Shown piece after piece: positions 57,058-62,708 of a stretch of 64,000 nt of DNA (positions are counted from its first letter, which is position 1; the number at the start of each line of letters is the position of its first letter). Made by a program: the position numbers and the translations under genes. Source of the stretch: an uncultured Clostridia bacterium (lineage in GTDB: Bacteria; Bacillota; Clostridia; Oscillospirales; Acutalibacteraceae); the NCBI GenBank assembly GCA_946555465.1, contig CAMNST010000001.1:248001-312000 (forward strand), written 5' to 3'. Under the pieces are notes generated by a model, which ran no database searches, was not told where the DNA came from, and was given only the letters and a program-made list of their open reading frames with translations.

Positions 57058-57663
57058 TTATTCTGAATACTCTCGAACTCTGAATTTTGCACCTGTTGAT
57101 TCACAAACCTTTCGTGACTTTTCAATATCTTCTTCAGGTATTACGTCAACAACGGTCATTCTTACATCATCGCAATATTTTACGCAATCACTTGTAAATT
57201 TAAGCATAGCATCAAAAGCCTTGCCGGGGAATCTGTTTTTTGTAATTTTATCATATTGCTCTGAAGTAGGTTCATTAAGAGAAACAGAAACACTGTCAAC
57301 AACCGAACAGATAAGTTCTGCCGTCTCTTTTTCATTAATTAAATCAGAAAGTCCGTTCGTATTAAGTCTGAGTTTTATTGAAGGATTTATTGTTTTGATA
57401 TACTTTGCAGTTTCGATAAGATTATCAAGGGCATTTGTAGGCTCACCGTAACCGCAGAAAACTGCGTTTTCAATTCTTGTAAAATCGTAATCGTCAACTG
57501 CCTTTTTTATTTCATCAAGAGTAGGCTCTGTTTTAAACCAAAGACTGTCGGCACTGCCTATTGCATCAAAATTGCTTCTTATGCAGAAAGTACATCTGCA
57601 AGGACATTTATTTGTGAGATTAATATAAGTTGAACCATTATAATCATAAATAATATCTGCCAT
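57058..57663 (-). CDS. radical-SAM protein of the TatD-associated type
   Basis: A compact 201-residue radical-SAM protein. NLTNKCPCRCTFCIRSNFDAIG contains the CxxxCxxC cluster site, and FCGYGEPTNALDNL and RLNTNGL are conserved. This matches the family named for frequent linkage to tatD; tatD is not present here. The start overlaps the ECF gene's stop. The target is unknown. Linkage to a B6 cluster suggests, without proof, a cofactor or salvage role. Confidence 0.85.
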   Translation of the reverse strand: MADIIYDYNGSTYINLTNKCPCRCTFCIRSNFDAIGSADSLWFKTEPTLDEIKKAVDDYDFTRIENAVFCGYGEPTNALDNLIETAKYIKTINPSIKLRLNTNGLSDLINEKETAELICSVVDSVSVSLNEPTSEQYDKITKNRFPGKAFDAMLKFTSDCVKYCDDVRMTVVDVIPEEDIEKSRKVCESTGAKFRVREYSE

Positions 57664-58205
57664 CATTTTTCTCCTATTGCTTTTTGAATTTTTATTTTGA
57701 AATTGAGTTTATCAAGTGCTAAACCCACTATTATAAATACAATTAAACTGCCTGTCGGCTGAAGCCAGCCTGTTGTGAATGCCGAAACAAAAGCAAATTT
57801 TGTTCCGTACATAATAAGTTCCGCAACAAGATAACCGAATATCGTTACAAGGCTTGTGGGAATCAACATTAAAATTGTATAAACCGATATAATCTTATCA
57901 TCTTTATTCATTTTCTTCAAGTAAATTCTTATAAAAATAAAAGGAAGTGCATTGAGTGCTTTTATGATAAGTGTAGGTATCGCCCAGTTGGCAGCACCTG
58001 TAAGGATATCTGCAAGCGCAGCACCTGCCGACGAAGCAAGCAGTGCATACGGTGCAGGAAGAACACAGGAGGCAATATAGATCATTGAATCACCGAAGTG
58101 CGTATATCCTGAATGGGCGGATGGTGCAATATGAATTATTGTACCTACAGTTACAAGTGCCATAAAAATTCCTGTATATGTAATTTTTGATGTTTTAGTT
58201 TTCAT
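57663..58205 (-). CDS. ECF transporter S-component, probable vitamin B6
   Basis: A 180-residue membrane protein with about six helices. TYTGIFMALVTVGTIIHIAPS and ALLASSAGAALADILTGAANWAIPTLIIKAL are typical of S-components, including the AxxxA-type motif that contacts the shared T subunit. The gene overlaps the pyridoxamine kinase gene by 11 bases and shares its promoter, so a B6 vitamer is the likely cargo, as for PdxU-type proteins. A thiamine-precursor cargo is an alternative. The energising EcfA/EcfT genes are not in the window. Confidence 0.8.
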   Translation of the reverse strand: MKTKTSKITYTGIFMALVTVGTIIHIAPSAHSGYTHFGDSMIYIASCVLPAPYALLASSAGAALADILTGAANWAIPTLIIKALNALPFIFIRIYLKKMNKDDKIISVYTILMLIPTSLVTIFGYLVAELIMYGTKFAFVSAFTTGWLQPTGSLIVFIIVGLALDKLNFKIKIQKAIGEK

Positions 58206-59001
58206 AAGCCAAATCTCCCAGATAGCGTTCAAAATCTATTCCGTCATTTCTGTCTGAAATATCGGAATATTTAATAGCCTTTTCCAAAAATGATGATGCC
58301 AGTTTAACTGATGAAATTATACTTTTACCGTTCATTACCGCACCAAGAACTATCGAAACAAATAAATCACCTGTTCCGCTGAAGGAACCGCCGTATTTTT
58401 TTGACGAAATGCGGGTAAAATCATTTTCACTGTAAACAAGATTTGTAATCCTATCATTTTCATCAAAACCTGTTACTATAATATTTTTTATTCCCAGTTT
58501 CTTCACTTTCTCTACGCATTTTTCAATATCATTTATGGTTTTGCAGAATGGTTCATCTGCAAGTATTGAAAGTTCCGAAACGTTAGGTGTTATAATATCG
58601 GCACGGCTGCATAAAGTTCTGATTTTATCAGTCATCTTATCCGTAAATCCATCATAAAGTTTTCCGCCGTCAGCCATAACTGGGTCAACAGCAAGAATCG
58701 TATTTTCACATTTAAAAGCATCAATAAAATTATTGATTAAATCAATCTGTTTTTCGTCACAGACATATCCGGTAAGTATTCCGTCAAAAGAAACACCGAG
58801 TTTTCTCCACTCATTCATAAACGCCTGCATATAATCTGTCATTGATAAAACACGATAGGACTTATATCCTGTCTGGTTTGAAAGTATTGCAGTCGGAAGC
58901 GGATGTGCTTCGCACCCCATAACGGAGAGAACCGGAATTGCCGCAGTAAGAGAGCATTTTCCAAAACCCGATAAATCATTGATTACTGCACATTTTTTCA
59001 A
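58195..59001 (-). CDS. pyridoxamine/pyridoxal kinase (PdxK/PdxY type)
   Basis: Phosphorylates B6 vitamers with ATP. INDLSGFGKCSLTAAIPVLS is the substrate-binding N-terminal motif, and GGSFSGTGDLFVSIVLGAVM carries the conserved GTGD catalytic loop. The track's start is unsupported; the TTG at 59001 (LKKCAVIND) is preceded by GAGGGGG. 268 residues. It lies upstream of the ECF S-component on one transcript and divergent from a MocR-type regulator. Confidence 0.9.
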   Translation of the reverse strand: MKKCAVINDLSGFGKCSLTAAIPVLSVMGCEAHPLPTAILSNQTGYKSYRVLSMTDYMQAFMNEWRKLGVSFDGILTGYVCDEKQIDLINNFIDAFKCENTILAVDPVMADGGKLYDGFTDKMTDKIRTLCSRADIITPNVSELSILADEPFCKTINDIEKCVEKVKKLGIKNIIVTGFDENDRITNLVYSENDFTRISSKKYGGSFSGTGDLFVSIVLGAVMNGKSIISSVKLASSFLEKAIKYSDISDRNDGIDFERYLGDLAYEN

Positions 59002-59018: not shown

Positions 59019-59047
59019 TTGAATCATTTCCAAAATAATTATATAAT
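59019..59047 (+). promoter_or_regulatory. promoter for the MocR regulator
   Basis: TTGAAT and TATAAT with a 17-base spacer, giving a leader of about 45 bases. Its -10 overlaps the -10 of the divergent promoter. Confidence 0.7.
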
Positions 59048-59065
59048 GAAACTGTAATCTGTAAA
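59038..59065 (-). promoter_or_regulatory. promoter for the pyridoxamine kinase operon
   Basis: TTTACA and TATAAT with a 16-base spacer on the minus strand, facing away from mocR. Confidence 0.6.
59052..59065. promoter_or_regulatory. direct-repeat operator candidate for the MocR regulator
   Basis: CTGTAAT followed immediately by CTGTAAA: two 7-base direct repeats. The pair covers the -35 box of the kinase promoter and the predicted start point of mocR. MocR-type proteins often bind direct repeats in such divergent intervals. Confidence 0.5.
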
Positions 59066-59099
59066 ATATACAATTTTAATATTTTTTTAAGGTACAGTT

Positions 59100-60356
59100 A
59101 TGAAAAAATACACAGCATTATATAATACAATAAAAGATAAAATTATTGGCGGAGAATTGCAGAAGGGCGACAAAATACCTTCTGTAAGAAATACTGCCGA
59201 AATATATGATGTATCAATTACAACAGTCCAAAATGCCTATTTTGACCTGTGTGCCGACGGATATGTAATCTCTAAAGAAAAAAGCGGATATTATGTTACA
59301 GATATCGGACAGATAAATCCAAAAGAAGAAGCGGCAGTTGAACAGGAAAAAACAGAATACGACCTGACCGGCGGAAAGGCCGATGAAGAAAGTTTTGATT
59401 TTAATTTATGGCAGAGATACATTAAAAGTGCATTGCGCCAGAAAGACAGACTGCTTTCCTACAGCAGTGCCAAGGGAGAATATGATTTAAGAAAAGCAAT
59501 AGCACAGTATATTAAAGATAAAAGAAATGTTATAACATCTGCCGATAATATCATAATCGGTGCAGGTGTGCAGCCGCTGCTGCAGATTCTCTGTGTTCTG
59601 CTTGATAATAACAGCATTGTATCTTTTCCGGATAAAAGTTTTATTCAAGGTATGGGAATATTCTCAAGTCACGGTTTTGAAGTTCACACAAGAGACAAGA
59701 ATGCCGATATAATTTATGTTTCGCCGTCGCATATGACAAGATGGGGCGATGTTATGCCGATTAAAAGACGTCTTGAACTGGTTGAGCACTCGCAGAAAAA
59801 CGGCGCTCTTGTAATTGAAGATGACTATGAAAATGAGTTTCTTTATAACAAAAAACCTACACCGTCGCTTTACACTCTCGGCAAGGGCAATGTTATATAT
59901 ATCAGTTCTTTTTCCGCAATGCTTCTGCCCGGAATAAGAATCAGTTTTATGGTGCTAACAAAAGAACTAAAGGAAAAATTTGAAAAACAGAGTTTTTGTT
60001 TTGCCCAGACTGCAAGCAAAACCGAACAGATTGCACTCTGCAATTATATACGTGACGGACATATAAATTCGCAAACAAGAAAAATAAGGAGACTTTATAC
60101 AGCAAAAACAAAACGCTTTGCAGAAATATTGCAAAACGAAATTCCTCAGGCAGATATAAAACTCAGCGAAAACTTTCTGCAGATTATATTTGAACATCCT
60201 TTTAAAGGCGATGTTTCATCTTTTAAAGAAAGCAAAATTGATGTTTTTATAGAAAAATATGAAGAAGAAAGAATAAAACTTATAATATCTCCGTCAGCAA
60301 TACCTTCAGCCGGTCTTGAAAGTGCCGCAAAAAGGCTGAAAAAGGTATTTGGCTAA
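59100..60356 (+). CDS. MocR/PdxR-type regulator lacking the Schiff-base lysine
   Basis: An N-terminal GntR winged helix (SVRNTAEIYDVSITTVQNAYFDLCADGY) is joined to an aminotransferase-fold domain. The usual FSKxLxPGLR motif, whose lysine holds PLP, reads FSAMLLPGIRISF, so that lysine is alanine. Other PLP-site features remain (EDDYENEFLY, ASP-like pairs). 418 residues, slightly shorter than typical at about 450-480. Being divergent from a B6 kinase and ECF gene, it probably regulates them. It may bind PLP non-covalently or respond to another ligand. Confidence 0.9.
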   Translation: MKKYTALYNTIKDKIIGGELQKGDKIPSVRNTAEIYDVSITTVQNAYFDLCADGYVISKEKSGYYVTDIGQINPKEEAAVEQEKTEYDLTGGKADEESFDFNLWQRYIKSALRQKDRLLSYSSAKGEYDLRKAIAQYIKDKRNVITSADNIIIGAGVQPLLQILCVLLDNNSIVSFPDKSFIQGMGIFSSHGFEVHTRDKNADIIYVSPSHMTRWGDVMPIKRRLELVEHSQKNGALVIEDDYENEFLYNKKPTPSLYTLGKGNVIYISSFSAMLLPGIRISFMVLTKELKEKFEKQSFCFAQTASKTEQIALCNYIRDGHINSQTRKIRRLYTAKTKRFAEILQNEIPQADIKLSENFLQIIFEHPFKGDVSSFKESKIDVFIEKYEEERIKLIISPSAIPSAGLESAAKRLKKVFG

Positions 60357-60788: not shown

Positions 60789-62708
60789 ATGAACAGGAAT
60801 TTATTTTCAAAACATATCAGCAATAACAGAGTCAAAATAAATGACACTTTCTGGAACGAAAAAATTGAACTTGTGCGCAGTGAAGTTATATCTTATCAGT
60901 ATCTCGCACTGCAGGATAAAATTGAAGGTGCCGAAAAAAGTTACTGCATCGAAAATTTTATTAAAGCAGCAAAAATTGTTAAAAGAATAAAAAACGGAGA
61001 AGAAGTACCGGTCTACCCTGCTGACAAATGGCAGTATGATGAAAATAACAGCGATAAAAATGCCTTTCACGGATGGGTGTTTCAGGATTCCGATGTTTAC
61101 AAATGGATTGAGGCTGCTGCATTCTCTCTTGAAAATCATTTCGATGAAGAATTGAAGAAGAAAGCAGATAAATTTATAGACATAATCTGCTGCGCACAAC
61201 TTGAAAACGGTTATCTTGATACATTATATATTATAAATGACCGTGAAAAGGTATTTACCAATCTTAAAGATTATCACGAATTATACTGTTTTGGTCATCT
61301 GGCAGAAGGTGCAGTTGCCTATTATAATGCAACCGGAGAAAGAAAACTGCTTGATGCCGCCTGCAGATTTGCCGATTTAATATGCAATACCTTTGGCAAA
61401 GATAAAAAACGGGGATACCCGGGTCACGAAATAGCAGAAATGGCGCTTGTTAAACTTTATGATGTGACAGGCAAAAGCGAGTACCTTGAAACCGCAAAAT
61501 TTTTTATTGATGAACGCGGAAAAAAGCCGTATTATTTTGATATTGAACGCGGCAGAAAAACCGTAAACGATAATTATCATTACAATCAGGCTCACAAAGA
61601 ACCAAGATATCAGAGTGAGGCAGTGGGTCACGCCGTTCGCGGTGTTTATCTCTACAGTGCAATGGCAGATATTTCAAAAATATACGGTGATGATGAATTA
61701 TATTCTGCCTGCAGAAACATATGGAATAATATTGAAAATAAAAAGTTATATATAACAGGAGCAATCGGCTCAACTGTTGACGGAGAAGCCTTTTCATTTG
61801 ATTATGATTTGCCGAATGATTTGGCTTATTGCGAAACCTGCGCATCTATCGGTCTTATCTTCTTTGCACAAAGAATGGCGGAAACAGAACCGGATTCAAA
61901 ATATTTTAATGTTGCAGAAAGAGCATTATATAATACCGTTTTATCAGGAATGGCAGAAGACGGCAAATCATTTTTCTATGTTAATCCTTTGGAGGTGCTT
62001 CCTGAGGCATCTGAAAAAGATTCAAGAAAAAGGCATATCAAAACAGTAAGACAAAAATGGTTCTCCTGCGCCTGCTGCCCGCCAAATCTTGCAAGACTGA
62101 TTTCTTCTGTGGGAAGTTATATTTTCAGCGAAAATGAAGATACTGTTTATATCAATCAGTTTATATCCAGCGGCACCGAAACCGACAAAGCCGATATAAG
62201 CATAAAATCCGAATATCTTGAAAACGGCAAGGTAAGGGTAAAAGTGAACTGCAAAAAAAGTTTCAGCCTGGCAGTAAGAATACCGGAAAACAGTTATATA
62301 AAATCGTCGCATAAATTTGTATCGGAAAAAGGCTATGCTTATTTTGATATTGATAAGAACTCAGAAATAGATTTACAGTTTGATATGGGCATAAAAATTA
62401 TTAAATGTTCAAACAGAGTGCGTGCAAATATAGGTAAAGCAGCCATAATGAGAGGGCCTGTTGTTTACTGCCTTGAAGAGGCAGACAACGGAAAAAATCT
62501 GCATTTGCTCAGTCTTTGCAAAGAACCCGATTTTGAATATAAAGACGGTTTTATTTTTGCGAACGGATTAAGGGAAAAAGCAGATGAAAATCTGTACAGC
62601 ATATATAGTGAACCCCAAAAAGAAAAATGCAGACTTAAATTTATTCCTTATTACAGATGGGCCAACCGCGGCGAAAACGAAATGACAGTATATATCAGGA
62701 CAGAATAA
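60789..62708 (+). CDS. GH127 beta-L-arabinofuranosidase (DUF1680)
   Basis: Releases L-arabinose from beta-linked arabinofuranosides such as those on hydroxyproline-rich plant glycoproteins. The zinc/catalytic set of GH127 is visible: CETCASIGL (Glu and Cys) near residue 350 and CACCPPNLARL (paired Cys) near 425. EIAEMALVKLYDVTG and YYVNPLEV-like motifs also match. 639 residues, no signal peptide, so it acts on imported oligosaccharides in the cytosol. CAGGTGA precedes the ATG. It is followed after one base by a MATE gene. Confidence 0.93.
   Translation: MNRNLFSKHISNNRVKINDTFWNEKIELVRSEVISYQYLALQDKIEGAEKSYCIENFIKAAKIVKRIKNGEEVPVYPADKWQYDENNSDKNAFHGWVFQDSDVYKWIEAAAFSLENHFDEELKKKADKFIDIICCAQLENGYLDTLYIINDREKVFTNLKDYHELYCFGHLAEGAVAYYNATGERKLLDAACRFADLICNTFGKDKKRGYPGHEIAEMALVKLYDVTGKSEYLETAKFFIDERGKKPYYFDIERGRKTVNDNYHYNQAHKEPRYQSEAVGHAVRGVYLYSAMADISKIYGDDELYSACRNIWNNIENKKLYITGAIGSTVDGEAFSFDYDLPNDLAYCETCASIGLIFFAQRMAETEPDSKYFNVAERALYNTVLSGMAEDGKSFFYVNPLEVLPEASEKDSRKRHIKTVRQKWFSCACCPPNLARLISSVGSYIFSENEDTVYINQFISSGTETDKADISIKSEYLENGKVRVKVNCKKSFSLAVRIPENSYIKSSHKFVSEKGYAYFDIDKNSEIDLQFDMGIKIIKCSNRVRANIGKAAIMRGPVVYCLEEADNGKNLHLLSLCKEPDFEYKDGFIFANGLREKADENLYSIYSEPQKEKCRLKFIPYYRWANRGENEMTVYIRTE

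Follow-up and report, generated by a model that had tools for sequence, protein, structure and literature searches.

The regulator encoded at 59100..60356 (+ strand) of the window, meaning the whole 64,000-nucleotide stretch of DNA analysed here, is a PdxR orthologue by descent that lies outside the covalent-PLP type. The literature presents MocR regulators as covalent PLP sensors. In this one the lysine of the internal aldimine is absent from its site and none has been gained nearby, and it is on this feature that the protein is excluded from the covalent type. On the evidence of the homologue trees, the lysine has been lost independently in many related bacteria, this regulator being one instance of a recurrent loss. 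The regulator probably still senses B6, without the bond.

The gene has an ATG start and encodes 418 aa, as judged from the ORF, the domain profiles and a structure model. A GntR winged helix-turn-helix at the N-terminus (aa 4-66; Pfam PF00392, 48.6 bits against a cut-off of 27) is followed by a fold-type-I aminotransferase-like domain (approximately aa 87-418; Pfam Aminotran_1_2, PF00155), so that both domains of the MocR/GabR subfamily are present. The NCBIfam equivalog PLP_TF_PdxR (NF052282) matches the protein over its full length, at a score that is marginal (320.7 bits, cut-off 320). The AlphaFold2 model, made from an input alignment of 112 sequences, has a mean pLDDT of 91.6, and its top Foldseek matches are full-length GabR and DNA-bound PdxR, with TM of about 0.72-0.75.

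Where GabR and Bacillus clausii PdxR have FSK, the regulator reads SFSAMLLPGIR. In phmmer alignments to B. clausii PdxR (7pq9) and B. subtilis GabR (4n0b), SFSAMLLPGIRISFMVL pairs with FSKSL.P..RISYMVL. This places Ala273 (codon GCA, 59916..59918, + strand) at the position of the Schiff-base lysine, Lys312 of GabR, and bears out the reading of FSA for FSK in the preliminary description. Alanine occurs here in 27 of the 167 homologues first collected, encoded by GCA in 16, GCC in 5, and GCG and GCT in 3 each. Given that all four GCN codons are found, a base-call error is ruled out, and the variety of codons argues for purifying selection acting on Ala273. A sequencing error at this codon had been allowed for at the outset, and the assembly is indeed a draft in 25 contigs. 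However, alanine is present in 26 of 26 members of the regulator's own subclade, which come from separate genomes, with synonymous variation in its codon, dN/dS is low, and both the ORF and the fold are intact, all of which makes an error, or a decaying gene, barely conceivable as the origin of Ala273. The median dN/dS is about 0.15 among the Ala members and about 0.09 among the Asn members, synonymous sites being near saturation in many pairs.

Homologues were collected from the genus (80 genomes), the family, the class, the phylum and GTDB contigs. Among the first 167, position 273 holds Lys in 69, Arg in 33, Asn in 29, Ala in 27, Thr in 5, and Asp, His and Gln in one each, with one gap. Among 50 strong PdxR hits sampled separately from the phylum, 45 have Lys, 2 Arg, 2 Asn and 1 Gln, and loss of the lysine is therefore the minority state in the phylum and the rule in the regulator's lineage. 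Whether alanine is fixed depends on how widely one looks. The all-Ala subclade holds 26 rows (SH-aLRT 99 in a tree of 164 rows) and is recovered in a more careful tree as 24 Ala of 24, with support of 100/99, but the surrounding clade of 69 orthologues is mixed (29 Asn, 27 Ala, 7 Arg, 5 Lys, 1 Thr). On the 164-homologue tree, for which the trait column was blanked before building, 15 changes between Lys and other residues are needed and at least 12 are forced by well-supported branches; since Lys to Arg takes a single base, some of the Lys rows may be regains, and the direction of change is not always readable. A single ancient loss was rejected, as the AU test excludes one lysine-less clade in a 77-row tree of the wider clade (p-AU 4e-26). 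The picture of one odd protein is thus too narrow.

Two further groups and one single locus among the homologues are worth recording. L122, L124, L177 and L178 form a distant, separate PdxR-like group that has FST for FSK and, in all four, a pdxU-like neighbour encoded on the other strand, and they represent an independent loss of the lysine in B6-linked regulators. Seven MocR proteins (L098, L099, L103, L125, L128, L166 and L180) are about 355-376 aa long, end near position 360 of 448 in the PdxR model and apparently lack the C-terminal small subdomain; several of them adjoin pdxK or pdxU. L091 1-300 (G116:C61), with a regulator ORF of 677 aa and upstream DNA that does not resemble the AT-rich sequence of its relatives, is probably an assembly chimera.

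The preliminary description had also foreseen that another lysine might form the aldimine. The Ala clade does have several conserved lysines, for example K109, K200, K222 and K336, but the lysine-bearing sisters conserve these four to the same or almost the same degree, and the lysines enriched in Ala members (K2, K61 and K338) sit in the DNA-binding domain or in the long helix that connects the domains. In a comparison of conserved lysines between the Ala clade and these sisters, no lysine specific to lysine-less members was found near the pocket. A migrated lysine was consequently rejected, and we regard it as very improbable. With the site lysine absent, none gained near the pocket and the loss a trait of the lineage, the proposed departure from the covalent-sensor model is upheld.

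The rest of the pocket was placed by alignment to GabR numbering. Three elements are retained, all on the + strand: Asp241-Asp242-Tyr243 (59820..59828; GabR Asp279, Asp280 and Tyr281, the anchors of the pyridine nitrogen and ring), Arg280 (59937..59939; GabR Arg319, on the phosphate side) and the phosphate-loop motif Gly154-Ala155-Gly156 (59559..59567). Across 215 homologues, Asp241 is found in all 102 lysine-less and in 112 of 113 lysine-bearing members, and Arg280 in 99 of 102 and 113 of 113. The three lysine-less outliers without the arginine (L107, L179 and L212) all lie outside the regulator's clade and may picture what a true loss of PLP binding looks like. Within an 82-row clade, of which 76 rows are lysine-less, Asp241 and Arg280 are among the 56 invariant positions of the lysine-less rows, while position 273 ranks 244th of 418 in conservation. 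The claim that the rest of the fold is intact holds for the fold itself and not for every residue of the pocket. The GabR Phe250 position, a ring contact, is Thr or Asn throughout the clade, lysine-bearing members included, and the position of Arg207, which binds the inducer in GabR, is Gln in the regulator. Since the Thr/Asn change is common to lysine-bearing members, it probably predates the lysine losses, and we infer that the lysine may have become dispensable through this alteration of the ring contact.

The reading that fits best, and one to which we give somewhat better than even weight, is that this is a functional regulator of B6 salvage that works with the PdxR pocket but skips the covalent step and binds a phosphorylated B6 vitamer non-covalently. 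It fits because the ring-nitrogen aspartate and the phosphate arginine are invariant while position 273 varies among Ala, Asn, Arg, Thr and Lys. The purifying selection on the gene, its conserved operator and neighbours, and the salvage-only setting of the genome count in its favour as well. Against it, folding or dimer contacts could account in part for the conservation of the Asp, Arg and Gly residues, and no member of the clade retains the ring-contact Phe.

Loss of the lysine could alternatively have locked the protein in its apo state, giving constitutive activation of B6 salvage with the aminotransferase domain as a dimerisation scaffold only. An organism living on salvage may need constant B6 uptake, position 273 tolerates Ala, Asn, Arg and Thr, and the Lys302His mutant of EnuR is locked as a constitutive repressor that has lost PLP incorporation (PMC8739950), so a MocR protein can cease to respond once its lysine is gone. 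However, unlike PdxR, EnuR takes its signal from an amino-acid inducer; the amino-acid adduct that it reads needs aldehyde chemistry, whereas a pure B6 sensor may do without it. Relaxed binding should moreover let the pocket drift, whereas Asp241 and Arg280 are invariant in the clade and the arginine is lost only in the isolated lysine-less outliers elsewhere; the lysine-bearing sisters also have the same operator and neighbours. A regulator blind to its ligand is on this evidence unlikely. Of the options first offered (non-covalent PLP, another vitamer, or constitutive action), it is non-covalent binding of a phosphorylated vitamer that fits best, and constitutive action is disfavoured.

The genes opposite the regulator are a B6 kinase and a transporter component, as first described. 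On the - strand, profiles identify a pdxK-like B6 vitamer kinase at 58195..59001 (NCBIfam pyridoxamine kinase, 264.7 bits against a cut-off of 231; the TTG start at 59001 is a prediction, the longest ORF reaching 59073), a PdxU-like ECF S component at 57663..58232 (TIGR04002; PF07155) and, as the last gene of this divergent three-gene operon, a TIGR04100 radical SAM protein at 57058..57666. At every own-clade locus with a full flank, pdxK, pdxU and/or the radical SAM gene are divergent from the regulator, and the conserved pdxK-pdxU pair provides the genomic linkage to B6 synthesis or salvage genes that is a feature of PdxR. The radical SAM gene is third in the pdxK-pdxU operon at many own-clade loci, and in L070, L072, L076, L079 and L080 it stands beside the regulator with neither pdxK nor pdxU detected there. 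In many own-clade genomes the regulator is followed on its strand by a gene for a GH127 beta-L-arabinofuranosidase (60789-62708, + strand, in the window), with no evident link to B6. A role of the locus in defence was considered and dropped, PADLOC giving no match.

The host, which we take to be a gut bacterium, has no pdxS in its genome; the gene is clearly present in only 1 of 80 genomes of the genus, and pdxH exceeds its cut-off in none of 51. With both mostly missing, the bacterium is predicted to depend on B6 salvage, as judged by these two genes. Since the genus lacks pdxH and mostly lacks pdxS, it is thinkable that the TIGR04100 protein carries out an oxygen-free conversion of B6 vitamers; we found no mention of TIGR04100 in the literature.

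The missing pdxH also bears on specificity, since PMP and PNP could build up without it. The site may have become specialised for an amine or alcohol vitamer (PMP or PNP), or for a PLP-amine adduct, that only a lysine-free pocket favours. No lysine competes for the aldehyde here, and the Phe250 position is changed. Such specialisation is something we infer throughout; Thr/Asn213 is also found in lysine-bearing orthologues, and the Gln at the carboxylate-binding Arg207 position of GabR speaks against an amino-acid adduct. We consider it rather improbable.

In the region between the two divergent genes, a predicted promoter for the regulator (TTGAAT-17-TATAAT, 59019..59047, + strand) is conserved in the orthologues, and a predicted pdxK promoter (TTTACA-16-TATAAT, 59038..59065, - strand) has a -10 that overlaps the regulator's -10 (ATTATATAAT). 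A three-box operator is predicted at 59052..59097 (+ strand), as CTGT (59052), ATACA (59068) and TACAG (59093), and comprises one inverted and two direct boxes. This candidate operator has the direct and inverted repeats expected of PdxR, and two direct boxes plus one inverted box are the commonest MocR operator type (PMC5320631). The boxes lie downstream of the regulator's -10 and overlap, or are upstream of, the -35 of pdxK. The consensus CTGT..AYACA..TACAG does not differ with the residue at position 273, whether Ala, Asn, Arg or Lys, in the 68 upstream regions, out of 69, that could be anchored. Searched against the genome, the 46-bp pattern has one perfect site, the regulator's own, and three sites with one mismatch that are of chance-like quality. 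The geometry would suit autorepression together with activation of pdxK, and in group A Streptococcus PdxR activates pdxKU in the absence of B6 and represses its own gene (PMC11619246).

For the preferred reading of non-covalent binding, we propose the following scheme, in which the direction of regulation is taken by analogy from PdxR of other Firmicutes. The regulator would bind the three-box operator between the back-to-back promoters. With B6 phosphates scarce, the apo form would activate the pdxK-pdxU-radical SAM operon through the boxes overlapping or upstream of its -35, and repress its own gene through the boxes downstream of its own -10. A build-up of 5'-phosphorylated vitamers (PLP, and probably also PMP or PNP) would let one of them dock non-covalently, contacting Asp241 by its ring nitrogen, the 154-156 loop, Ser270 and Arg280 by its phosphate, and Thr213 and Tyr243 at the side of the ring. 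The docked vitamer would shift the dimer and activation would stop. A broader suggestion, which we offer tentatively and at less than even confidence, is that a lysine-free class of PdxR has evolved repeatedly and measures the whole pool of phosphorylated B6 (PLP, PMP and PNP) by reversible non-covalent binding, in anaerobes without de novo synthesis or the oxygen-dependent PNP oxidase. If this is true, the aldimine is dispensable for B6 sensing in this family.

These proteins amount to a large and recurrent natural experiment, with the lysine present in some and absent from others against a constant background of ring anchors, phosphate anchors and operator. They make it testable whether the aldimine is needed for sensing or a bound phosphate ester is enough, with the lysine-bearing sisters L097, L134, L137, L080 and L088 as ready-made controls. 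They are also a warning that a family-level annotation as PLP-dependent need not mean Schiff-base chemistry. A survey of 1331 MocR sequences reported Lys312 to be conserved in all clusters (PMC6677901); this generalisation fails for 102 of our 215 homologues, a sample weighted to the regulator's lineage. We found no open paper on natural lysine-less MocR proteins, a mention being possible in the 2011 heterogeneity paper and the 2018 MocR review.

Among known systems, B. clausii PdxR (PDB 7pq9, 7zla, 7zn5, 7zpa and 7zth) and the PdxR-pdxKU loci of Firmicutes resemble the regulator in the winged helix-turn-helix and aminotransferase-like domain, the B6 target genes, the direct and inverted operator boxes, and the Asp, Arg and loop anchors. 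Compared with B. clausii PdxR, the regulator lacks the Schiff-base lysine, has Thr for the ring-contact Phe, and barely reaches the PdxR cut-off. GabR of B. subtilis (4n0b, 5t4j) has the same fold and pocket layout, but exchanges its Lys312 aldimine for an aldimine with GABA, whereas the regulator has replaced both Lys312 and the inducer-binding arginine. The EnuR mutant is likewise a MocR regulator without the lysine; its change, however, was engineered in the laboratory and cost it PLP, whereas the regulator's own change arose in nature, is fixed and recurs, and its anchors are kept.
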